Assembly (NCBI GenBank): GCA_027485235.1
Contig: JAIXRJ010000042.1
Coordinates: 1 to 64,000, forward strand
Source of the DNA: Comamonadaceae bacterium
GTDB lineage: Bacteria > Pseudomonadota > Gammaproteobacteria > Burkholderiales > Burkholderiaceae_C
Length of the DNA stretch: 64,000 nucleotides
Direction of reading: 5' to 3'
The notes beneath the pieces were generated by a model. That model saw only the letters and a list, made by a program, of their open reading frames with translations, was not told the origin of the DNA and searched no databases. A program made the translations under genes and the position numbers. Below are positions 3,558 through 34,974 of the stretch, in pieces (the first letter of the stretch is position 1; each line of letters opens with the position of its first letter).

Positions 3558-4472
3558 ATGCGCGCGCCTTTGCAGTTTGTGCTGGATTTTTTCACCGGGG
3601 GTGACCCGGCCATGCCTGCTGCGCCATCCAGGGTCCCGGCTGCGATGCCCATGGCGCAGCCTTCTGAGTCAAATCAAGCAGGGACGCCCACCAACAGGCC
3701 CCCGCTGGGGGGTTTGCCAATGCCTGAGTCCACAGGCTTTACCCACCCTGCAGCCAATCGACACGCGCTGCTGCACGGCATGACCGTGTCTTTTTTATTC
3801 GAACGTGCGCGTCGCCGAAGCATCGGTTTTCTGGTGGGCGCCGAGGGGCTGGTGGTGCGGGCGCCCAGCTGGGTGACCTTGCGCGAGGTGGATGCTGCCG
3901 TACAGGAGAAGGGTGCGTGGATTGTGGCCAAGCTGCAGCAGTTCAAACAACGCCAGACCGAGCAATTTCAGCAAGCCATTGTGTGGACCCATGGCGCTGA
4001 GGTGCCGTTTTTGGGTGGGACTGTGCAGCTGTGTGTCCTGCAGCACGGCATGCCCTTGCAAGAGGTCTCCCCCGATGTGCAACGCTTGCCCGTCAGTGTG
4101 CCGCCCGGCGCAAGCACCACACAGGTGCGTGAGGTGGCCGAAGCCTGGCTCAAAAAACAGGCACGACAATTGTTCGAGCAACGGCTTGAACATTTCGCGC
4201 CCTTGCTGGGTGTGCGCTGGAGCAAACTCAGTTTGTCCAGTGCCAACACCCGCTGGGGCAGTGCGCGCAACGATGGACACATCCGGCTGAACTGGCGGCT
4301 GATCCATTTGCCGGTCAGCCAGATCGACTATGTGGTGGTGCACGAGTTGGCACACCTGCGCGAGATGAACCACAGCCCCCGCTTTTGGGAGACCGTCGGC
4401 GAAGTCATGCCCGATTACGCGCAGCGCCGCAAAGCCCTCAAGCAAGCGCCCATGGGTTTGGCTCAGGACTGA
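3558..4472 (+). CDS. YgjP-like (DUF45) metallopeptidase-domain protein
   Basis: A 304-residue protein. After a low-complexity, proline-rich N-terminal 60 residues comes the YgjP/DUF45 fold. The signature is the zinc motif HELAHLREMNHSPRFWETV, with the HExxH-type helix plus a downstream histidine, followed by MPDYAQRRKALK. SSANTRWGSARNDGHIRLNWRLIHLP just before it is the conserved substrate-side strand region of this family. The cellular substrate is not known. It follows plsC by 18 bases, so it may be last in the glyQS-gmhB-plsC operon. Its 3' end overlaps the convergent MBL hydrolase gene by 10 bases. Confidence 0.85.
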   Translation: MRAPLQFVLDFFTGGDPAMPAAPSRVPAAMPMAQPSESNQAGTPTNRPPLGGLPMPESTGFTHPAANRHALLHGMTVSFLFERARRRSIGFLVGAEGLVVRAPSWVTLREVDAAVQEKGAWIVAKLQQFKQRQTEQFQQAIVWTHGAEVPFLGGTVQLCVLQHGMPLQEVSPDVQRLPVSVPPGASTTQVREVAEAWLKKQARQLFEQRLEHFAPLLGVRWSKLSLSSANTRWGSARNDGHIRLNWRLIHLPVSQIDYVVVHELAHLREMNHSPRFWETVGEVMPDYAQRRKALKQAPMGLAQD

Positions 4473-5551
4473 GCGGAGCTGAAGCGGTAGACCCCGCCAG
4501 CATCCTGTGTTCGCTGCAATTGACCGCTGAGCCACAGCAGGTGAAGGTGGGCCACCGACTCGCCCATGGCGAACGTCATCTGGTGCACATTCAAAGGTCG
4601 TTTGAACAGCACCGGCAATGCGTCATGAGCGGACAGAGCTTGTTCGCTGCAGGCCTGCAACAATTCACGCAGGCGTTCATCGTGGTGGGCGCGCAGCTGC
4701 GCAATGCGCCGCTGCGCGCCTTTGAAGGGTCGTCCATGGGAGGGCAGCACCAGGGTGCTGTCAGGCAGGTCTTGCATTGGGGTGAGGGAGTCCAGAAACA
4801 ACTGCAATGCATTGCCTTGCGGTTCCTGCGCATAGACGCTCACATTGGTCGAGATCGAGGGCAGCAGCATGTCGCCGCTGATCAGGATCTGGCTTTGCGC
4901 GTTGTACAAGGCGATGTGCTCGGGCGAGTGACCATAGCCACTGATGCAGCGCCAATCCCGGCTGCCTATGCGCACCGCGTCATCGGCCATCAGGCGCACA
5001 TAGGCCTTTGGGACTTGCGGCACCATGCTGGTGTAGTAGCCTACTCGGGCCTGGATTTGTAACAGGTCTTCTGTCTTGTTCCAGCCGTGCGCCTGATAAA
5101 ACTGCACCGTGGGCTTGCCGCCGAAATTGGAGACGCCCGACTGGGCCATGGCCGCCGACTGGTATTCGCTGGTGCTCATCCACAAAGGGGCTTGCCAGCG
5201 TTCGCACAACCAATGCGCCAAGCCCATGTGGTCCGGGTGCATGTGCGTCACCAGCACACGCAAGATGGGCAGGCCCTGCAAATGCTCCTTCTCGATCTGC
5301 AACCAGGCTTGACGGGTGGCCTCGTTGTCGATGCCGCAGTCCACCGCCGTCCAGCCTTCTTGCAGGACACCTCTTTGGGTGGGATGGGGCAGGTGGTCGC
5401 GCAGCAACCACAAGTTGATGTGGTCCAGCGCAAAAGGCAGGCCCATGCGCAACCAAAGCACGCCCGGGGCGACTGCCAACACCTTGCCCATCTCGGGGAG
5501 TTGATCGCCAAATGGGTAGTCCAGGGGAAGCGCTTGGGTGGGATGGGACAT
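4463..5551 (-). CDS. MBL-fold metallo-hydrolase
   Basis: A 362-residue metallo-beta-lactamase-fold hydrolase. The dinuclear metal motif is THMHPDHMG near residue 115. Further ligands are supplied by GYGHSPEHIALY, ISGDMLLP and LPSHGRPFKG. A glyoxalase-II-like or thioester hydrolase function is plausible, but no substrate can be read from the sequence. The gene is transcribed away from liuR and shares its upstream region with a LiuR-type palindrome at 5584-5604, so co-regulation with leucine catabolism is inferred. The ATG at 5551 was chosen because a longer form starting at 5575 would nearly touch the operator. Confidence 0.85.
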   Translation of the reverse strand: MSHPTQALPLDYPFGDQLPEMGKVLAVAPGVLWLRMGLPFALDHINLWLLRDHLPHPTQRGVLQEGWTAVDCGIDNEATRQAWLQIEKEHLQGLPILRVLVTHMHPDHMGLAHWLCERWQAPLWMSTSEYQSAAMAQSGVSNFGGKPTVQFYQAHGWNKTEDLLQIQARVGYYTSMVPQVPKAYVRLMADDAVRIGSRDWRCISGYGHSPEHIALYNAQSQILISGDMLLPSISTNVSVYAQEPQGNALQLFLDSLTPMQDLPDSTLVLPSHGRPFKGAQRRIAQLRAHHDERLRELLQACSEQALSAHDALPVLFKRPLNVHQMTFAMGESVAHLHLLWLSGQLQRTQDAGGVYRFSSAQS

Positions 5552-5583
5552 TCGGACCGTGGTTTGGGTTAGCATTCTCTCAG

Positions 5584-5604
5584 TTGACGTTACGTTAACG
5601 TCAA
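5584..5604. promoter_or_regulatory. LiuR-type operator between the MBL hydrolase and liuR
   Basis: A perfect inverted repeat with arms TTGACGTTA and TAACGTCAA around a 3-base spacer. It resembles the palindrome bound by the MerR-family regulator LiuR in branched-chain amino acid utilisation. It sits between divergent genes, 70 bases before the liuR start, which fits autoregulation and control of the MBL gene. Confidence 0.8.
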
Positions 5605-5673
5605 GCCAGCAAAGCATTCTAGGAGGAGGCCTCGGCAAAGACCTGTCCCCTGTGCGCAAAGACGGAGTACCTC

Positions 5674-6078
5674 ATGCCCAGCAGCTACACGATCAGCGAC
5701 CTCGCTCAGGAATTCGACCTGACCACCCGCGCTATCCGTTTTTACGAAGACATGGGCCTGCTCGAGCCCGAACGCCTTGGACCCGGCGGGCGCAACCGGC
5801 TGTATTCGGCCCGTGACCGCACCCGCCTGAAGCTGACCTTGCGCGCCAAGCGTTTGGGTCTGTCGCTGACCGAGGCCAAGGACCTGATCGACATGTACGA
5901 CAGCCCGCGCGACACCGTTCCGCAGTTGAAAAAGTTCCTGGTGGTGCTGGCCGAGCACCGCCAGCAGTTGGAGTCGCAGCTGGCCGATCTCGAGGCCACG
6001 CTGGACGAGGTCAAAACCCACGAGAAAGAAACCCGCACCCTGTTGACCAAGGCTGCCAAAGCCGTTGCAGTCGGGTAA
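5674..6078 (+). CDS. liuR: MerR-family transcriptional regulator of leucine/isovalerate use (LiuR)
   Basis: A 134-residue MerR regulator. The N-terminal winged helix (YTISDLAQEFDLTTRAIRFY) is followed by the wing (GGRNRLYSARDRTRLKLTLR) and a long C-terminal dimerisation coiled coil (residues about 75-125). It lacks the cysteines of metal-sensing MerR proteins, as expected for LiuR, which is known to respond to branched-chain acyl-CoA intermediates. A GGAG ribosome-binding site lies at 5664-5667. The gene is bracketed by two palindromes of the same design and sits at the head of a leucine degradation cluster, which supports the LiuR name. Confidence 0.88.
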   Translation: MPSSYTISDLAQEFDLTTRAIRFYEDMGLLEPERLGPGGRNRLYSARDRTRLKLTLRAKRLGLSLTEAKDLIDMYDSPRDTVPQLKKFLVVLAEHRQQLESQLADLEATLDEVKTHEKETRTLLTKAAKAVAVG

Positions 6079-6085
6079 ATCGATG

Positions 6086-6109
6086 ATTGACGTTTACGTA
6101 AACGTCAAT
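6086..6109. promoter_or_regulatory. LiuR-type operator upstream of the thioesterase/liuA operon
   Basis: A 24-base perfect palindrome centred on ACGT, with half-site ATTGACGTTTAC. It begins 8 bases after the liuR stop and ends before the thioesterase start. It is the strongest operator in the window and shares the TTGACGTT half-site with the site at 5584-5604. Control of the downstream operon by LiuR is inferred. Confidence 0.88.
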
Positions 6110-6113
6110 TAAA

Positions 6114-6581
6114 GTGTTGGCTTCTTCTCGCTTGCTGAAATCCGACGTGACCACCCCCAATCCAGCCCATGAACGTGTTGCCCGCAGCTTGGCCCGCCAA
6201 GGCATGATGCAGCATTTGGGCGTGCGTTTGCTGTCCGTGAGCGAAGGCCAGGTGGAGCTGTCCATCCCCTACAGCGACAAGACCACGCAGCAGCAAGGCG
6301 GCTTTCACGGCGGTGCCATCGGTGCTTTAGCCGACATCGCAGGCGGCTATGCCGCCCTGACCATGGTGCCCGAAGGCATGGAAGTCGTCACGGTCGAATA
6401 CAAGATCAATTTCCTCAGCAGCTACCAGGGTGGCGAGATCCGAGCCACCGGCAAGGTGCTCAAGGCCGGTCGCCGTGTGCTGGTGACCACGGCCGAGGTG
6501 GTCCACATCGACGCCAAGGGAAAAAGTTCGCCCTGCGCGGTCATGCAACAAACCTTGGCCCCTGTGCCTCAAACTTATTGA
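6114..6581 (+). CDS. PaaI-family hotdog thioesterase
   Basis: A 155-residue single hotdog-fold protein, expected to hydrolyse acyl-CoA thioesters in the cytoplasm. The family pattern is visible in [22 protein letters not shown] (helix with catalytic HGG and aspartate), then [32 protein letters not shown]. The start is uncertain: GTG at 6114 is only five bases from the operator and has no clear ribosome-binding site, and GTG at 6147 (144 residues) is an alternative. It is first behind the LiuR operator and precedes liuA, suggesting a role in releasing stalled CoA esters during leucine breakdown. Confidence 0.85.
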
Positions 6582-6622
6582 TGTGCCCTGCGCACGCTGA
6601 CCCACACCCCTCGGAGACCTCC

Positions 6623-7804
6623 ATGAACAACCTGCCTGGCCTGAACTTCCAACTTGGTGAAGACATCGACGCCCTGCGCGACGCGGTGCGCGACTTTGCC
6701 CAAGCCGAAATCGCCCCCCGCGCGGCCGACATCGACCGCAACGACCAGTTCCCCATGGACCTGTGGCACAAGATGGGTGACCTCGGGGTGCTCGGCATCA
6801 CCGTGGGCGAAGAGTACGGCGGCGCGAACATGGGCTATCTGGCGCACATGATCGCGATGGAAGAAATTTCCCGTGCCAGCGCTTCGGTGGGTCTGAGCTA
6901 TGGCGCGCACTCCAACCTGTGCGTCAACCAGATCAAGCGCAACGGCACACCCGAGCAGCGCGCCAAATACCTGCCCAAGCTCATCACTGGCGAGCACGTT
7001 GGTGCCCTGGCCATGTCCGAGCCCGGTGCGGGCTCAGACGTGCTGAGCATGAAACTCAAGGCCGAGGACAAAGGCGGTTATTACTTGCTGAACGGCTCCA
7101 AAATGTGGATCACCAATGGGCCGGATGCCGACACCTTGGTGGTGTATGCCAAGAGCGAGCCCGAGCTCGGCGCACGCGGTGTCACAGCCTTTTTGATCGA
7201 GAAGGGCATGAAGGGTTTTTCGATTGCGCAAAAGCTCGACAAGCTGGGCATGCGCGGCAGCCACACGGGCGAGTTGGTGTTCAACAACGTCGAAGTGCCC
7301 GCCGAGAACATTCTGGGTGGCCTGAACAACGGTGCCAAGGTGCTGATGAGCGGCCTGGACTACGAGCGTGCTGTGCTCACCGGTGGCCCGCTGGGCATCA
7401 TGCAAGCCGTCATGGACAACGTGATCCCCTACATTCACGACCGCAAGCAGTTTGGCCAAAGCATTGGCGAGTTCCAGCTGATCCAGGGCAAAGTGGCCGA
7501 CATGTACACCGTGTTGCAAGCCGGTCGCAGCTTTGCCTACACCGTGGCCAAAAATCTGGACTTGCTGGGGGCCGAACACGTGCGCCAGGTGCGAAAGGAC
7601 TGCGCCAGCGTCATCTTGTGGACCGCCGAAAAAGCCACTTGGATGGCGGGTGAGGGCGTGCAGATTTTTGGCGGCAACGGCTACATCAACGAATACCCCT
7701 TGGGCCGTCTCTGGCGCGATGCCAAGCTGTACGAGATCGGCGCAGGCACGAGCGAGATTCGCCGCATGCTGATCGGGCGCGAGTTGTTTGCCGAAACCTG
7801 CTGA
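6623..7804 (+). CDS. liuA: Isovaleryl-CoA dehydrogenase
   Basis: A 393-residue acyl-CoA dehydrogenase that oxidises isovaleryl-CoA to 3-methylcrotonyl-CoA with FAD. Visible family motifs are [13 protein letters not shown] (FAD/substrate strand), [15 protein letters not shown], and the C-terminal [52 protein letters not shown] carries the region of the catalytic glutamate typical of isovaleryl-CoA dehydrogenases. A GGAGA ribosome-binding site at 6613-6617 supports ATG 6623. The LiuR operator just upstream and the carboxylase genes at 19-25 kb support the assignment over other branched-chain acyl-CoA dehydrogenases. Confidence 0.92.
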
Positions 7805-28643: not shown

Positions 28644-30758
28644 TTAGTGAGCAGCAGACCCTTGTGAGGTGGTGCCGTCAAAGCTGGGGAAACGGACGTT
28701 CTCGACCATGTCCTGAACTTCTTGGTCGGGTTCTTTGGTCAGCAGCGACACGATGATGATCACCGCAAAGCCTACTGGCACACCAAAGATACCGGCCGAG
28801 ATGGGGGCAATGTCCCACCAGGTGTTGGCCTTCAAGATTTCAGGCGTCAGCGAACCCTCATGGAACAAGCCGTACATCCAGGGATGGGTCTTGACCATGT
28901 AGTAGAAGGAGATGCCCAAACCAGCCACCATGCCCAGCGAGGCGCCCCATTTGTTGGCACGCTTCCAGAAGATGCCCAGGGTCAACGCAGGGAAGAAGGC
29001 CGCTGCTGCGAACGAGAAGGCTGCAGACACGAGGAACAAAATGTCGGCCATGCGCAGCGATGCGACATAAGCCGCAGCCAAGGCCACGAACACCAAGATC
29101 ACTTTGGAGATCGCTACACGGCGGTTTGCTGAGGCGTTGGGGTCAACAATCTTGTAGTACACGTCGTGCGACAAGGCGTTGGCAATGGTCAGCAGCAAGC
29201 CGTCGGCTGTGGACAAGGCCGCAGCCAAACCACCCGCCGCCACCAAACCAGAAATCACGAAGGGCAAGCCGCCGATTTCAGGTGTGGCCAAGACCACAAT
29301 GTCACCGCCCAAACGGATCTCTGCCAACTGCAAAAGGCCATCTTTGTTGATGTCAGCCACCGCCATCAGCGTGGGGTCCACCACGTTCCAGCGTGCAATC
29401 CAATCCGGTAATTGATTGAACGGTGTACCGACCAGCAGCGTGTAGATGTCGAACTTGACCAACACCGCCAAAGCAGGCGCTGTGAAGTACAGCAAAGAGA
29501 TGAAGAACAGCGACCAAGCCACCGACTCACGCGCTTCGCGCACCGAGGGCACGGTGTAGAAACGCATCAGGATGTGCGGCAAGGCAGCGGTACCGATCAT
29601 CAAACAGAAGACCAGCGCCAAGAAGTTCTTGCGGGCAACATCTCGGGCAGCGTCGTCTTTGCCAGGGAAAGGCTCAGCATGACGCAGGGGTGGTGCTGCG
29701 CGTGCCGTGTTGGTGGTGCGGGCTGCGGTGTAAGCCGTTTTGGCAGCTGCTTCATCCTTTGGCAAAGCGGCGACGGCAGCCTCAGCAGTTTTGATGTCTG
29801 CTGCGGGCGCGTTGGCGGCCTTCAGCTCTTCCAGCTTTTTGGTAGCGGCTTCTTTGTCGGCAGCCATGGCTGCTGGCACATCTTTCAGCTTTTCAGCGGC
29901 CGCATCAGCACGTGCTTTGAAGATACCGCGAACTTCGAGCTCTTTGGGGTCTTTCAGCAGTTGCTCTTCTTTGGCGCTGACTTTCTCGAGCAAGTAGCCA
30001 TAAGCCACTTGAGGCACAGGGTTGCTGGTGTGTTTCACCGACAACCAAACCACAGGGATCATGTACGCTACGATCAAGATCAGGTATTGCGCCACCTGGG
30101 TCCAGGTCACAGCGCGCATGCCGCCCAAGAACGAGCAGACCAAGATACCGGCCAAACCCACATAAACACCCACATCAAAGGACAGACCTGTCATGCGGGC
30201 GGTGATCAAGCCCACGCCGAAGATCTGCGCCACCACGTAAACGAAGGACACCAAGATGGCGGCAAACACGCCAATCAGGCGAGCCATGTTGCCGCCGTAG
30301 CGAGCGCCCAGGAAGTCAGGGATGGTGAACTGGCCAAACTTACGCAGGTAAGGCGCCAAAAACAAGGCCACCAAACAGTAACCGCCCGTCCAGCCCAAGA
30401 TGAAGGCCAAACCGCCGTAACCGGTCAGGTAAAGCGTACCGGCCATGCCGATGAAGGAGGCTGCCGACATCCAGTCAGAGCCGGTGGCCATGCCGTTGTA
30501 CATGGCAGGCACACGGCGGCCGGCCACATAGTATTCGGCCGCATCGTTGGTCCGACTCATCACACCAATGCCTGCGTATAAGAGCACCGTGGCTGCCAGG
30601 AAGGCGTAGCCAATGTAATCTTTATGCATCCCCATTTGCTCAAGGATGGCGAGCACGATGACGAAAGCCGCAAAGCCAACGCCGTAGAAAAGGAAAACTT
30701 TGTTCAGAGACTTCTGAAACTGGCCTTGGGTTTGGCCTTCCCCTCCAAAAACGCTCAT
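28644..30758 (-). CDS. Sodium:solute symporter, VC_2705/ActP-like subfamily
   Basis: A 704-residue inner-membrane symporter of the SSS family, related to acetate permease. About 13 hydrophobic segments are visible, and AEYYVAGRRVPAMYNGMATGSDWMSAASFIGMAGTLYL is the characteristic N-terminal block. Between about residues 245 and 370 there is an insertion rich in Ala, Lys and Glu (VSAKEEQLLKDPKELEV onward), predicted coiled and outside the membrane. The start overlaps the DUF4212 gene stop by four bases. Likely substrates are short-chain organic acids, but the sequence does not decide this. Confidence 0.9.
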   Translation of the reverse strand: MSVFGGEGQTQGQFQKSLNKVFLFYGVGFAAFVIVLAILEQMGMHKDYIGYAFLAATVLLYAGIGVMSRTNDAAEYYVAGRRVPAMYNGMATGSDWMSAASFIGMAGTLYLTGYGGLAFILGWTGGYCLVALFLAPYLRKFGQFTIPDFLGARYGGNMARLIGVFAAILVSFVYVVAQIFGVGLITARMTGLSFDVGVYVGLAGILVCSFLGGMRAVTWTQVAQYLILIVAYMIPVVWLSVKHTSNPVPQVAYGYLLEKVSAKEEQLLKDPKELEVRGIFKARADAAAEKLKDVPAAMAADKEAATKKLEELKAANAPAADIKTAEAAVAALPKDEAAAKTAYTAARTTNTARAAPPLRHAEPFPGKDDAARDVARKNFLALVFCLMIGTAALPHILMRFYTVPSVREARESVAWSLFFISLLYFTAPALAVLVKFDIYTLLVGTPFNQLPDWIARWNVVDPTLMAVADINKDGLLQLAEIRLGGDIVVLATPEIGGLPFVISGLVAAGGLAAALSTADGLLLTIANALSHDVYYKIVDPNASANRRVAISKVILVFVALAAAYVASLRMADILFLVSAAFSFAAAAFFPALTLGIFWKRANKWGASLGMVAGLGISFYYMVKTHPWMYGLFHEGSLTPEILKANTWWDIAPISAGIFGVPVGFAVIIIVSLLTKEPDQEVQDMVENVRFPSFDGTTSQGSAAH

Positions 30759-31018
30759 GCTTCTTCTCCTTCTGCCACGCCATATTCCTTGTCAAGGTTG
30801 TTCATGTAACGTGCGTAGAACCAAATGATCAAGCAGTACACGATCAATGCGCCTTGGGCTGCGACCCAAAACGAGAACGGCCAGCCAAAAAAGTTGAACG
30901 TCAAATCACGCGCGAAGAACAAAACTACAAAAGTGACAAAGAACCACAGGGCCAGCAACAGCCCCGTGATGCTTAAGTTTTTGCCCCAGTATTCTCGGTG
31001 CCTTGCAGTGAGCTGCAT
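30755..31018 (-). CDS. DUF4212 protein, small subunit of Na+/solute symporter
   Basis: An 87-residue protein with two transmembrane helices (GLLLALWFFVTFVVLFFA and FWVAAQGALIVYCLIIWFYA) separated by RDLTFNFFGWPFSF. It is the usual partner encoded before VC_2705-type symporters. AAGGAG six bases upstream selects ATG 31018 over the ATG two codons earlier. It is coupled to the symporter by ATGA. Confidence 0.93.
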   Translation of the reverse strand: MQLTARHREYWGKNLSITGLLLALWFFVTFVVLFFARDLTFNFFGWPFSFWVAAQGALIVYCLIIWFYARYMNNLDKEYGVAEGEEA

Positions 31019-31098
31019 CGTCATCTCCTTCTTGTTAAAAAAATAAACTACCGACTGTCACATTTAAATTTCTCAACCAACACCTGCGGTTGTTGTAT

Positions 31099-31716
31099 TC
31101 ACAAAGGCCTGTTTAATTTCAGCCCTGTGTCCCGCTCGAGTTGGGCGGCTACCTTGGGCTCAAAGCCATTTAAATGACGCATGACCTCCAGCGCTTTTTC
31201 GGGCTCACGCATCTCCACGTGAACCCGGGCCATTTGGTACCAGGCGTAAGGGCTCATGGATTGCAATTCGGTGTTGCGCTTGAAGGCCACCAAAGATTCT
31301 TCAAATCGCCGTTGACGCACCAGCACCAAGCCGAGGCCATACCAAGCGCGGTCCATTTTTTCGTCAATTTGGAGGGCGGCGCTGAAAGCGTGTTCTGCTT
31401 CTTGGCTGCGTCCCAACTCCTCGGATACGAAGCCCACGTTGAAGTGCGCATTGGCGTTGGTTGGGGTGAGCGCCAAGGCGCGCTCAAAAAAACCCAGGGC
31501 CTGCACCAAGTGGCGCTTGCTCAGTTCGTTGTAACCGAGGCTGTTGAGCGCTAAGACATCCTGTGGGTTGATGTCGAGGATGTCTTGGAAAACTGCATGG
31601 GCTTGCGTGCGCAGGCCAAACACCAAAAGAACCTTGGCCTTGAACCGCAACCACAGGCACTTGCTGCGCAGGGAGGAGTCAAGCTTGGCGGGGGCCACAT
31701 GGATGTTCACTGGCAT
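31099..31716 (-). CDS. Tetratricopeptide-repeat protein
   Basis: A 205-residue protein with about four TPR units between residues 35 and 175 (for example ALNSLGYNELSKRHLVQALGFFERALALTP, then AHFNVGFVSEELGRSQEAEHAFSAALQID). TPRs mediate protein-protein contacts. No enzyme domain or signal peptide is seen. Its start lies inside the last codons of the upstream small membrane protein gene (10-base overlap), implying translational coupling. The partner is unknown. Confidence 0.85.
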   Translation of the reverse strand: MPVNIHVAPAKLDSSLRSKCLWLRFKAKVLLVFGLRTQAHAVFQDILDINPQDVLALNSLGYNELSKRHLVQALGFFERALALTPTNANAHFNVGFVSEELGRSQEAEHAFSAALQIDEKMDRAWYGLGLVLVRQRRFEESLVAFKRNTELQSMSPYAWYQMARVHVEMREPEKALEVMRHLNGFEPKVAAQLERDTGLKLNRPL

Positions 31717-32003
31717 GCGGCCACTCCCAGCTCAAGGCAAGTCTCGATTTTCAACTGCACCACCACCACCCACGCAATGAGCAACCAGCTGCTGGTGGCC
31801 AGTGGGATGTGTTGGTCGAGGATGAGTTTAGGGCTGATTTTCCGTGTGATCCAAAGCGCAGGTTTGGACGCCACATCCAGCAATTGCCAAAAGACATTGT
31901 TGTCACGGTTGGACCCCGCCAGCAGTCCCAGCAGGAAACGCCCAACGATGAACATCAGAGAAAGTTCAATCAGACTTTTGGCGATGACAATGGCAAGCAA
32001 CAT
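31707..32003 (-). CDS. Small membrane protein of unknown function
   Basis: A 98-residue protein with hydrophobic stretches at residues 1-30 (MLLAIVIAKSLIELSLMFIVGRFLLGLL) and 70-86 (SSWLLIAWVVVVQL), with a cationic loop between (KPALWITRKISPKLILDQ). I do not recognise the family. It overlaps the TPR gene and is preceded by an FNR-like box. Confidence 0.7.
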   Translation of the reverse strand: MLLAIVIAKSLIELSLMFIVGRFLLGLLAGSNRDNNVFWQLLDVASKPALWITRKISPKLILDQHIPLATSSWLLIAWVVVVQLKIETCLELGVAACQ

Positions 32004-32494: not shown

Positions 32495-32743
32495 TCAATC
32501 TTTGGGTACAGGCCTGCCTGAAGCGGCCTCTAGGGCTTCCCAGCGGTTCATGAGGAAGGCAAAAACGACGATGATGAACAAAAACACGAGGATGGAACCT
32601 TGTGCGGCCATCCAAAAATACAAAGGCCAACCCCAAACAATCACAGACAAATCACGCGCAAAAAAGCTGGGGCCAAAACTGATCAGCAGCCAGAACAGCA
32701 AAAGGACGGTGGTCAAAATGCGTTTCTTGTGAATGAAAGCCAT
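32495..32743 (-). CDS. DUF4212-like two-helix membrane protein, second copy without a large subunit
   Basis: An 82-residue protein with the same plan as the DUF4212 gene at 30755: basic N-terminus (FIHKKRILTT), helix 1 (VLLLFWLLISFGPSFFA), RDLSVIVWGWPLYFW, then helix 2 (MAAQGSILVFLFIIVVFAFLM). The shared FARDL...WGWP..FWMAAQG pattern shows it is a paralogue. No symporter gene follows it on the reverse strand, so its large subunit is missing here. Confidence 0.8.
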   Translation of the reverse strand: MAFIHKKRILTTVLLLFWLLISFGPSFFARDLSVIVWGWPLYFWMAAQGSILVFLFIIVVFAFLMNRWEALEAASGRPVPKD

Positions 32744-33213
32744 GACATCAGTTCGCGTTAATTGATGACGCCATCTTCATCAGACCACTGAACCGACGAT
32801 GCAGCCGTGCCTCACACCCGCGTTCAGGGTGTGCCAACGCTGACGCTTATTTTCAATGCGCCATTCACACCCAGTGGCACTGCCCAAGATGGTGACGTCA
32901 AAGCTGTTCTTGTCCATGCCGGTGTTCTTCTGGTTAATTCAGATTTCAAGGCGAATGTGCTCGAACGACCGACTTTACTGGATGAAGAGTGGGGTTTGAG
33001 AGCGGATTTGGTAATAAACCGGATCCTGAGGGAACCATCAGTACAGGGTATTTACCCTTGGAATCAGAAGTTTTATTGCAATGTGGAAAAAATACCAAGG
33101 GTAAATACTGGGTATGTAAGCCCATGTTGGTTGCTAGTCAGACAGGGGAAAGTGCAACCAACAAGAATCAGAACAAGTCTCCGTGTCGGAGACTCTTTTT
33201 TGGAGACAGCTTT
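32744..33213. promoter_or_regulatory. Long divergent intergenic region and structured leader of the MFS gene
   Basis: A 470-base region between the divergent DUF4212 and MFS genes. The right half contains two strong inverted repeats and a terminator. GTATTTACCCTTGG at 33048-33061 pairs with 33095-33108. TGTTGGTTGC at 33125-33134 pairs with 33154-33163. Finally there is an intrinsic terminator at 33176-33201 directly before the ribosome-binding site. This looks like a regulated RNA leader. I do not recognise it as a known riboswitch class. Nothing convincing is coded in it. Confidence 0.6.
33176..33201 (+). terminator. Leader terminator directly before the MFS ribosome-binding site
   Basis: Perfect 8-bp stem AGTCTCCG/CGGAGACT with loop TGT, followed by CTTTTTT. 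The ribosome-binding sequence GGAGAC at 33202-33207 repeats the 3' arm, so the 5' arm could alternatively pair with the ribosome-binding site. Confidence 0.85.
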
Positions 33214-34974
33214 ATGGCAACAACAGCAGCCCGCCCGATGTCGGCGGAAGAGAAGAAGGTCATTTTTGCCTCTTCTCTGGGTACCGTTTTTGAATGGTAT
33301 GACTTTTATTTGTACGGTTCATTGGCCGCCATCATCGCCAAGCAATTCTTCAGCGGCTTGGATGAAGGTTCTGCCTTCATTTTTGCCCTGCTGGCCTTTG
33401 CTGCCGGCTTCATCGTGCGTCCTTTCGGTGCGATTTTCTTCGGCCGCCTGGGCGACATGATCGGTCGCAAGTACACCTTCCTGGTGACCATCCTGATCAT
33501 GGGTGTGGCCACCTTCATCGTGGGCATCTTGCCCAACTACGCCAGCATCGGCGTGGCCGCTCCCGTCATCCTGATCGGCCTGCGTTTGCTGCAAGGCTTG
33601 GCTTTGGGAGGTGAATACGGTGGTGCTGCCACTTATGTGGCCGAGCATGCCCCCATGGGCAAGCGCGGTGCCTACACCGCCTGGATCCAGACCACCGCCA
33701 CTTTGGGCTTGTTCCTGTCGCTGATGGTGATTTTGGCCACACGGACCATCGTCGGTGAAGAAGCTTTCGCCGACTGGGGCTGGCGCGTGCCGTTCCTGGT
33801 TTCGATCTTGCTGTTGGCGATCTCGGTCTACATCCGTTTGAGCATGAACGAATCGCCTGCTTTCGTGAAAATGAAATCCGAAGGCAAGACTTCCAAGAAC
33901 CCCTTGTCCGAATCTTTCGGCCAGTGGAAAAACCTGAAGATCGTGATCTTGGCCTTGTTCGGCTTGGTCATGGGTCAAGCGGTGGTTTGGTATTCCGGTC
34001 AGTTCTATGCCTTGTTCTTCTTGACACAAGCGTTGAAGGTCGATGGCGCCACCGCCAACATCATGGTCGCGATCTCCTTGATCATCGGCACACCGTTCTT
34101 CGTGATCTTCGGCACTTTGTCTGACAAGATTGGCCGAAAGCCAATCATCTTGGCCGGTTGCTTGTTGGCCGTGGTCACTTACTTCCCGGTTTTCGAAGCG
34201 TTGACCAAAGCGGCCAACCCTGACCTGTACGCTGCTCAGCAGTCGGCCAAGGTGACCGTGACGGCCGACCCGGCCGAGTGCTCGTTCCAGTTCAACCCCA
34301 CAGGCACCAAGAAGTTCACTTCTTCTTGTGACATTGCCAAACAGCGTTTGGCTGGTGCTTCCGTGTCCTACGAAAACATTGCAGCGCCTGCGGGCACCCC
34401 TGCTGTGATCAAAGTGGGCGAAACCGTGGTGAACGTCAAGTACTCCGCTGAAGACATTGCAGCAGCCAAGGCCAAGGCCGAGGAAAAGCTGGCCGCTCTG
34501 AATGCGGTAGAACCCAAAGACGCCAAGGCCATCGAAGCTGCGACCAAGTCTGTCAAAGACCTGAGCAACGAGAAGACTGCGGGTGCAACCATGTTGGCTT
34601 CCAACTTGGGCGCTGCCTTGAAGGCCGCTGGCTACCCTGCCAAAGCCGACATGGCCAAGTTCGACAAAGTGACTGTGGTCATCATCCTCTCCTACTTGGT
34701 GTTGTTGGTGACCATGGTGTACGGTCCTATCGCCGCCATGCTGGTGGAGATGTTCCCCACCCGCATCCGTTACACATCGATGTCCTTGCCCTACCACATT
34801 GGTAACGGCTGGTTCGGTGGTTTGATGCCCACAACCGCGTTTGCGATCGTGGCCCAGACCGGCAACATGTACAACGGCTTGTGGTACCCGATCATCATCG
34901 CCGGTGCCACGGTGGTCATTGGTGGCTTGTTCATCAAGGAAACCAAAGACGTGGACATCTACGCAAACGACTGA
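33214..34974 (+). CDS. MFS transporter, metabolite:H+ symporter family
   Basis: A 586-residue major facilitator of the MHS type (ProP/KgtP/ShiA relatives). Helix 1 carries GTVFEWYDFYLYGSLA. The loop motif GRLGDMIGRKYTF, the RLLQGLALGGEYGGAATYVAEHAP block and the second-half motif SDKIGRKP are present. Between about residues 340 and 482 there is an extra hydrophilic domain with two cysteines (AECSFQFNPTGTKKFTSSCD) and an Ala/Lys/Glu-rich helix. Residue 483 onward resumes the last helices. ATG 33214 follows a GGAGA site. Longer forms reaching back into the leader lack family resemblance. Confidence 0.9.
   Translation: MATTAARPMSAEEKKVIFASSLGTVFEWYDFYLYGSLAAIIAKQFFSGLDEGSAFIFALLAFAAGFIVRPFGAIFFGRLGDMIGRKYTFLVTILIMGVATFIVGILPNYASIGVAAPVILIGLRLLQGLALGGEYGGAATYVAEHAPMGKRGAYTAWIQTTATLGLFLSLMVILATRTIVGEEAFADWGWRVPFLVSILLLAISVYIRLSMNESPAFVKMKSEGKTSKNPLSESFGQWKNLKIVILALFGLVMGQAVVWYSGQFYALFFLTQALKVDGATANIMVAISLIIGTPFFVIFGTLSDKIGRKPIILAGCLLAVVTYFPVFEALTKAANPDLYAAQQSAKVTVTADPAECSFQFNPTGTKKFTSSCDIAKQRLAGASVSYENIAAPAGTPAVIKVGETVVNVKYSAEDIAAAKAKAEEKLAALNAVEPKDAKAIEAATKSVKDLSNEKTAGATMLASNLGAALKAAGYPAKADMAKFDKVTVVIILSYLVLLVTMVYGPIAAMLVEMFPTRIRYTSMSLPYHIGNGWFGGLMPTTAFAIVAQTGNMYNGLWYPIIIAGATVVIGGLFIKETKDVDIYAND

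Follow-up and report, generated by a model that had tools for sequence, protein, structure and literature searches.

The window, i.e. the whole stretch of 64,000 nucleotides analysed here, carries on its forward strand a gene (33214..34974) for an MFS transporter of 586 aa resembling metabolite:H+ symporters (TIGR00883, PF00083), and on its reverse strand, at 28644..32003, a cluster encoding a YGGT-like protein, a TPR protein, a DUF4212 protein (TIGR03647) and a VC_2705-type sodium:solute symporter (TIGR03648). The MFS protein matches TIGR00883 with an E value of 1.5e-104 and 350 bits, below the cut-off of 443 bits, and the best stretch of this NCBIfam match stops at residue 345. Ala/Lys-rich inserts of roughly 100 aa, read from the translations, occur both in this transporter and in the one encoded at 28644-30758, and such an insert may explain the score of the MFS protein below the TIGR00883 cut-off. 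A second DUF4212/TIGR03647 small subunit is encoded at 32495-32743 (reverse strand) with no large subunit beside it, in the vicinity of the complete DUF4212/symporter pair at 28644-31024.

The DNA immediately preceding the MFS gene folds strongly as RNA: the 201 nt between 33030 and 33230 reach -63.7 kcal/mol (z = -4.15), a value that none of 200 shuffles attained, so that structure is above chance for this single sequence. On the forward strand, hairpin 1 has arms of 17 nt (33048-33064 / 33092-33108, 94% complementary, with 14 contiguous pairs), and hairpin 2 a perfect stem of 10 bp (33125-33134 / 33154-33163). A third, shorter stem-loop (33176..33194; arms 33176-33183 / 33187-33194, 8 bp, 3-nt loop) precedes a T6 run (33196..33201), retained in most congeneric leaders and mostly missing outside the genus, and the ribosome-binding site GGAGAC (33202..33207) lies immediately 3' of this run. 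The arm AGTCTCC (33176-33182) is complementary to each of the two GGAGAC copies, at 33188-33193 and at 33202-33207. A first-pass annotation of the DNA had read the interval 33041-33213, which ends one base before the ATG of the MFS gene (33214), as a structured leader with a terminator and a ribosome-site switch, belonging to no RNA class that it recognised. The hairpins, the T-run and the GGAGAC repeat that it listed are indeed all present, a scan of 32740-33230 recovers a terminator-like site, and comparison with Rfam likewise yields no family, as a scan of the window against Rfam 15 gave 0 families at the gathering threshold and a permissive scan of 32950-33300 gave 6 matches, every one with E > 1. 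A repeat element or mobile hairpin was dismissed, since the leader matches its own genome fully just once. Is this structure common to homologues, and is it transcribed?

Out of 590 relatives, 80 orthologous loci were kept (best-segment identity 71-96%), mostly titled Comamonadaceae or other Burkholderiales, which gives 81 upstream regions together with that of the window. What is conserved in these 81 regions is a set of DNA words, GTCAG, GTAAG and TTCAG, in 11-bp steps: 101 pairs of words lie at a distance of 11 (200 shuffles average 0.12 such pairs and never have more than 2), although these are not 101 independent events, because orthologues are related. Aligning the regions on the last word pair was possible for 74 of the 81 (L042, L055, L062, L068, L069, L072 and L077 remaining unanchored), and a second signature emerged unprompted, the anchoring having used the repeats only: A at +16 in 97%, A at +18 in 91% and T at +20 in 97% of the anchored regions, columns that correspond to A-11, A-9 and T-7 of a sigma-70 -10 element. 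Two anchored regions (L084, L085) have no -10 at this place, and the 72 others, window included, were retained. Four alignments were used: A1 (58 of the 72 regions), A2 (19 of 36 candidate regions), A3 (28 rows of close homologues, omitting L087, i.e. the window, L104 as a duplicate of L007, L092 for its partial MFS match and L111 for its divergent leader) and A4 (44 of 54). All 28 rows of A3 keep the GGAG of the ribosome-binding site unchanged.

In the window, the array comprises four units on the forward strand: GTAAG (33116..33120), which has its 11-bp phased counterparts in orthologues, a GTTGG variant (33126..33130) that all 28 rows of A3 share, GTCAG (33137..33141), also invariant in A3, and GAAAG (33148..33152), a degenerate unit that is GTCAG or GCAAG in most A3 rows. 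The -10 element AAGAAT (33163..33168, forward strand) begins 15 bp downstream of where the last unit begins, and the scan of 32740-33230 detected no TTGACA-type promoter. A sequence-only model of the array plus the -10 (R1) matches 33115-33170, unit 1 included, with an E value of 1.3e-6 for the whole genome. Two points run contrary to this array, namely the degenerate fourth unit and one 10-bp step, as unit 2 lies 10 bp after unit 1 and 11 bp before unit 3; a three-unit pattern allowing one mismatch has no match in the own genome, the degenerate array of the window included. Between the first and the last unit, the distance at 52 loci is 32/33 bp (33 loci, the window having 32 bp), 54 bp (15), 65 bp (2) or 75 bp (2), i.e. 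arrays of 4 to 8 units, with gain or loss of entire units between loci.

From the conserved -10, transcription is predicted to start at about 33175 on the forward strand, 7 nt past the last base of the element, in a column that is A in 52%. Both long hairpins, claimed as leader RNA, thus lie upstream of the -10 and hence of the predicted start, and a start downstream of the hairpins is what the first-pass annotation had itself named as evidence against its reading, the start found here being a predicted one. Folding across the 72 regions agrees: the mean z is +0.02 (-3.56 in the window) for the 45 nt that precede the predicted start and -1.07 for the first 45 nt that follow it.

Covariation separates the three helices in the same manner. 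In A3, where the shuffle and sliding controls cover the three helices jointly, 62.1% of the cells are paired for helix 1, 46.8% for helix 2 and 93.3% for helix 3, so that, of the structured leader that had been proposed, the third hairpin stands and the first two are poorly conserved. Compensatory changes, the absence of which had been named as a refutation, do occur in helix 3 (two-sided changes in 5 of 8 pairs) and in helix 1 (8 of 16 pairs), but helix 2 is disrupted in most of the 28 close relatives. Many pairs of helix 1 are broken in one third to most of the rows, and its core ACCC/GGGT is nearly invariant in A3. Without an imposed structure, RNAalifold predicts helix 3 as the sole structure, and the long hairpins are absent from the consensus. 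A2 retains helix 3 in 18 distinct rows with two-sided changes in 7 of 8 pairs, and its covariation score of 0.540, compared with 0.310 +/- 0.037 in shuffles and at most 0.301 in slid versions, is to be read knowing that the A2 rows were picked for alignable stem spacing, a selection that favours structure. The letters of helix 3 vary and its pairing stays, which argues for an RNA element, since a palindrome bound by a protein would keep its letters. Judged by covariation, the third hairpin (33176-33194) is a genuine RNA element.

The switch proposed for the AGTCTCC arm, pairing either within the terminator or with the ribosome site, did not survive comparison: over 71 regions, the longest complementary run between the 5' arm and the ribosome site averages 3.72, close to the 3.45 expected by chance, and only 4 of the 71 reach p < 0.05, the window being one of them (7 nt, p 0.015). 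The terminator fared better within the genus, where 21 of the 23 leaders show a T-run of at least 4 no more than 33 nt from the start codon, so that a role in termination or translation at the genus level is possible, but across the 72 regions a T-run of at least 4 directly after the stem is seen in 11 and missing in 61. A riboswitch or attenuator with two aptamer hairpins was rejected because of the covariation pattern and the predicted position of the promoter. More generally, a long, structured leader RNA whose promoter lies farther upstream, with two hairpins binding a ligand or a protein and an arm switching its pairing, would account for the strong fold of the window, the terminator-like site, the T-runs of the genus and the 7-nt complementarity, but it is hardly credible in view of helix 2 being paired in fewer than half of the cells, of helix 1 being retained mainly at ACCC/GGGT, of the lack of folding signal before the predicted start in the 72 regions, of arm pairing near chance, of the lack of any Rfam match, and of a -10 element at the foot of hairpin 2.

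If not leader RNA, what are the long hairpins made of? Hairpin 2 (33125..33163) overlaps units 2-4 of the array and the first base of the -10, and would be a coincidence specific to this lineage. The left arm of hairpin 1 (33048..33064) contains a GGG..CCC-like site, conserved chiefly as ACCC, and the right arm (33092..33108) contains a GGGT element; hairpin 1 exists because two such sites face one another. The strong fold of the window is thus not common to homologues, as facing sites and a chance repeat created its hairpins. The GGGT (33099-33102) belongs to a composite block, CACATNNNGAAA-N10-GGGT, whose logo and spacing are found in 54 of the 81 regions, in which the first unit begins 17 bp after the start of GGGT, a fixed distance that, like that of the -10 after the last unit, follows from the selection of the loci; the block and an ACCC site some 45 bp upstream of it together account for hairpin 1. 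Since the CACATNNNGAAA block, written as a strict regular expression, fits only 9 of the 81 regions, the logo was used instead, and the corresponding model (R2) matches the window at 33072..33120 (forward strand) with E 2.6e-5. Its best 14 matches in 40 genomes (E <= 1.2e-4), one per genome, all adjoin R1 sites of this promoter; weaker matches (E >= 0.0084) are scattered over several unrelated places, and the second-tier pairs L152/L154 and L155/L156 are each one place in two genomes. This block probably binds another factor. As for the palindrome GGGT-N4-ACCC, its 3 matches in the window are equalled by 4 of 100 shuffles, hence uninformative alone, and it is modestly enriched in the upstream regions (21 with at most 1 mismatch, vs 7.1 expected). 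Another motif, AGGGWWWWCCCT, has 7 occurrences in the own genome (L159-L165) and its reversed control 0; 6 of the 7 lie outside the local longest reading frame, they share no common gene, and several stand shortly upstream of genes that by eye resemble regulators (XRE, GntR, TetR). AGGGWWWWCCCT is possibly the site of a wider regulator.

With transcription starting near 33175, the mRNA would open with the 8-bp stem-loop at 33176-33194. In 48 of the 72 regions, compared with 13.7 in composition shuffles, a 5' stem with 6 or more pairs begins no more than 8 nt from the predicted start. In congeneric species, the hairpin and its T-run may be a promoter-proximal terminator or pause site layered on the promoter and releasing RNAs of about 25 nt, an outcome that a translating ribosome, a Nus-type factor or a small molecule could prevent. 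The covarying stem and the T-runs of the genus, which adjoin the stem in A3, fit this proposal, but we regard it as unlikely, given that T-runs follow the stem in far fewer regions than have the stem itself, and that a hairpin starting almost at +1 leaves very little nascent RNA. The ompA mRNA has a stabilising stem-loop at its 5' terminus, and a comparable function can be proposed at the MFS gene, where the stem-loop would shield the 5' end from decay and leave the ribosome site free, as it is pairing and not sequence that is conserved. Stem-loops at the 5' end that hinder RppH and RNase E stabilise mRNAs such as papA, according to an excerpt of PMC3997798. Like those of papA and ompA, the stem described here lies a few nucleotides from the predicted 5' end, is variable in sequence and leaves the ribosome site unpaired; unlike them, it is a covarying stem common to orthologues, with a stem-loop at the corresponding place in 10 of 18 other array-driven transcripts, and its stabilising effect is proposed by analogy.

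These other transcripts came from searches with R1. In the own genome, R1 has one match, and there is no second site at E 10. Across 60 genomes (own included), 26 strong matches (E <= 3.9e-5) were obtained in 25 congeneric genomes, and 26 of 26 precede this MFS gene. When 150 family genomes were searched at E <= 0.02, R1 matched 97 sites in 85 of them and none in the 65 others, under strict filters that possibly missed some. The 97 sites, of which 95 were classified through fetched loci and 2 (G000, G013) from earlier results, precede the MFS gene (74), yjcH (15), a YGGT-like gene (2), acs (1) or other genes (5), the last five being unrelated and having E >= 0.0104. Among the 15 yjcH genes, Pfam confirmed DUF485 in both of the two products examined, tblastn located 6, and the rest were read from their translation. 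The gene after yjcH has the cation/acetate symporter ActP as its best match in 6 of 6 tested loci, with 3 of them exceeding the NF006903 cut-off and most of the others being incomplete in the fetched stretch. The acs product (L253, G120) passes the cut-off of NF001208 for acetate-CoA ligase, and its site is the weakest of these rows (E 0.0188), within the range of the 5 unrelated sites. The YGGT-like gene stands behind an array at L174 (G084), with a VC_2705-type symporter downstream (TIGR03648, 800.6 bits), and at L218 (G102), where the YGGT-like gene only was seen; its name is a loose one, as the Pfam match of the window protein is below cut-off and the L174 protein has no match.

A-11 and T-7 stand at the same offset in 18 of 18 yjcH, YGGT-like and acs sites, but both columns are part of R1, and neither this count nor the MFS matches are independent tests, because R1 was built from MFS promoters selected for A-11 and T-7. 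A stem of at least 6 bp at the 5' end is present at 10 of these 18 sites, against 2.7 expected, only 5 of the 18 being individually at p < 0.05, which suggests that regulated transcripts tend to start with a stem-loop. At L168-L171, arrays for yjcH and for the MFS gene lie back to back in one intergenic region between divergent genes. In the genome of the window itself, DUF485 has no match, the YGGT-like cluster has a single GTAAG/GTCAG pair at 11-bp distance (32167-32152, reverse strand), and none of the 14 R1 matches listed falls at this cluster. In G026 (L158, C9:41648-41688), an array-like site without a fitting -10 precedes an acyl-CoA ligase-like gene and is divergent from a possible Crp/Fnr-like gene, both labels coming from reading the sequence. 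The array promoter being common to yjcH-actP, the YGGT-like gene and one acs gene, the MFS gene most likely belongs to a regulon for the uptake of acetate or a short-chain carboxylate.

Which kind of protein would bind the array? Tandem direct repeats in 11-bp steps that replace the -35 at a fixed distance from the -10 characterize OmpR/PhoB-type promoters, and all of these traits are found here; repeats replacing the -35 at such a distance are the geometry of PhoB promoters, e.g. that of E. coli pstS. An excerpt of PMC3798270 documents multiple direct repeats at 11 bp for ArcA, with 3-5 repeats per site, and mentions them for OmpR and PhoB, and Pho boxes are described as 11-nt direct repeats in an excerpt of PMC4415409. 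As in the OmpR/PhoB-family operators described in these excerpts (ArcA sites, Pho boxes), the units of the array are arranged head to tail, 11 bp from centre to centre, and number more than two, and as in OmpR/PhoB-family promoters there is no recognisable -35 and the distance to the -10 is constant. Unlike ArcA and Pho operators, the unit is GTMAG, the arrays count 4 to 8 units, and the set of targets is another one. By this analogy, the array is probably bound by a response regulator of the OmpR/PhoB type. The array may be thought of as an ordinary Pho box array, and the MFS gene as a PhoB target, given identical unit length, a promoter geometry as in PhoB promoters and operators that may carry several repeats (excerpts of PMC3798270 and PMC4415409); it is, however, very improbable, as the GTCAG/GTAAG units differ from CTGACAT-GTTC-TTGTCAC, a probable Pho box (one example, identified by eye) in the upstream region of the own pstS (L117), and the common targets are acetate-type genes. 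A search for membership in the Pho regulon found neither CTGTCAT-type units, the units being GTMAG, nor phosphate-related targets.

Another candidate is the local version of CrbS/CrbR (MxtR/ErdR), a LuxR-type system that, in this family, would recognise another site. LuxR-type regulators do not usually have sites laid out as tandem 11-bp direct repeats. CrbS/CrbR controls acs and actP in Pseudomonas and Vibrio, and CrbR of Pseudomonas has a published site, ACTU, which forms an imperfect inverted repeat (excerpt of PMC5715377). The regulon proposed here resembles that one, on the basis of the same excerpt, in that its targets include actP (the 15 yjcH sites) and acs (1 site) of 97, and differs from it in its direct repeats, where ACTU is an inverted repeat, and in its extra targets, the MFS gene and the symporter cluster headed by the YGGT-like gene. 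In G140 (L176), two genes stand between the MFS gene and yjcH, one for a large HisKA/HATPase protein (4495-7203, reverse strand), whose N-terminal region looks membrane-spanning by eye, and one for a receiver-only protein (4127-4696, reverse strand); as candidates for the regulator, they are a lead.

The shared acs and actP targets and this gene pair both speak for a local CrbS/CrbR, which we keep as a minor but real possibility, even though the ACTU core is found in 22 of 79 regions, within the chance range of shuffles (mean 13.6, maximum 24), the fuller ACTU form in 0 of 79, the repeat layout is unlike that of LuxR-type regulators, and a partial gene beside the YGGT-like array of L174, used as a query with no positive control, had no match in the own genome. 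The CrbR ACTU site was itself rejected, its fuller form being missing and its core at chance in the 79 regions. Neither CrbR as described nor PhoB is thus favoured, as the fuller ACTU form is missing and the own pstS box differs.

Taken together, we are fairly confident that the interval from about 33045 to 33175 serves the MFS gene as promoter-operator and is not leader RNA, that it depends on an activator within a probable acetate-uptake regulon, and that the predicted start is followed by a 5' stem-loop. In this promoter-operator, units of about 11 bp of the GTMAG type end at a fixed distance from a -10 lacking a recognisable -35, and a regulator would bind them in head-to-tail order and bring in sigma-70 RNA polymerase, with a second factor at CACATNNNGAAA-N10-GGGT just upstream of the array, and transcription would begin near 33175. 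From promoter geometry and target genes we infer the protein class of this regulator and the signal that it would sense, while the array, the -10, the covariation and the common target genes come directly from comparing relatives. With somewhat better than even confidence, we further propose an as yet unrecognised acetate (short-chain carboxylate) uptake regulon of the Comamonadaceae type, with 4-8 GTMAG units and a regulator other than CrbR, in which the length of the array would tune the response. Such a regulon would join the MFS gene to yjcH-actP, to the sodium-symporter cluster headed by the YGGT-like gene and to acs, its arrays would grow and shrink by whole 11-bp steps, and a 5' stem-loop would be coupled to the regulated mRNAs. 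The mechanism would be a further case of a known promoter type, and regulon and cis code appear to be without precedent in open-licence full texts, no description of the array or regulon having been found in the titles and abstract openings of the matches listed for actP in Comamonas or Betaproteobacteria, yjcH-actP, CrbR, repeats with MFS or OmpR-type regulators, and Limnohabitans riboswitches.

A strong fold of a single sequence, even with a z of -4.15, need not be common to homologues, and what was supposed to be an orphan riboswitch becomes here a testable regulon. The arrays of 4 to 8 units form a natural series of operators that could be used for dose response. The regulon also points to acetate, or an acid related to it, as the substrate of the 586-aa MFS transporter. 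This reading matters for freshwater bacteria such as Limnohabitans, which may live on short-chain acids.
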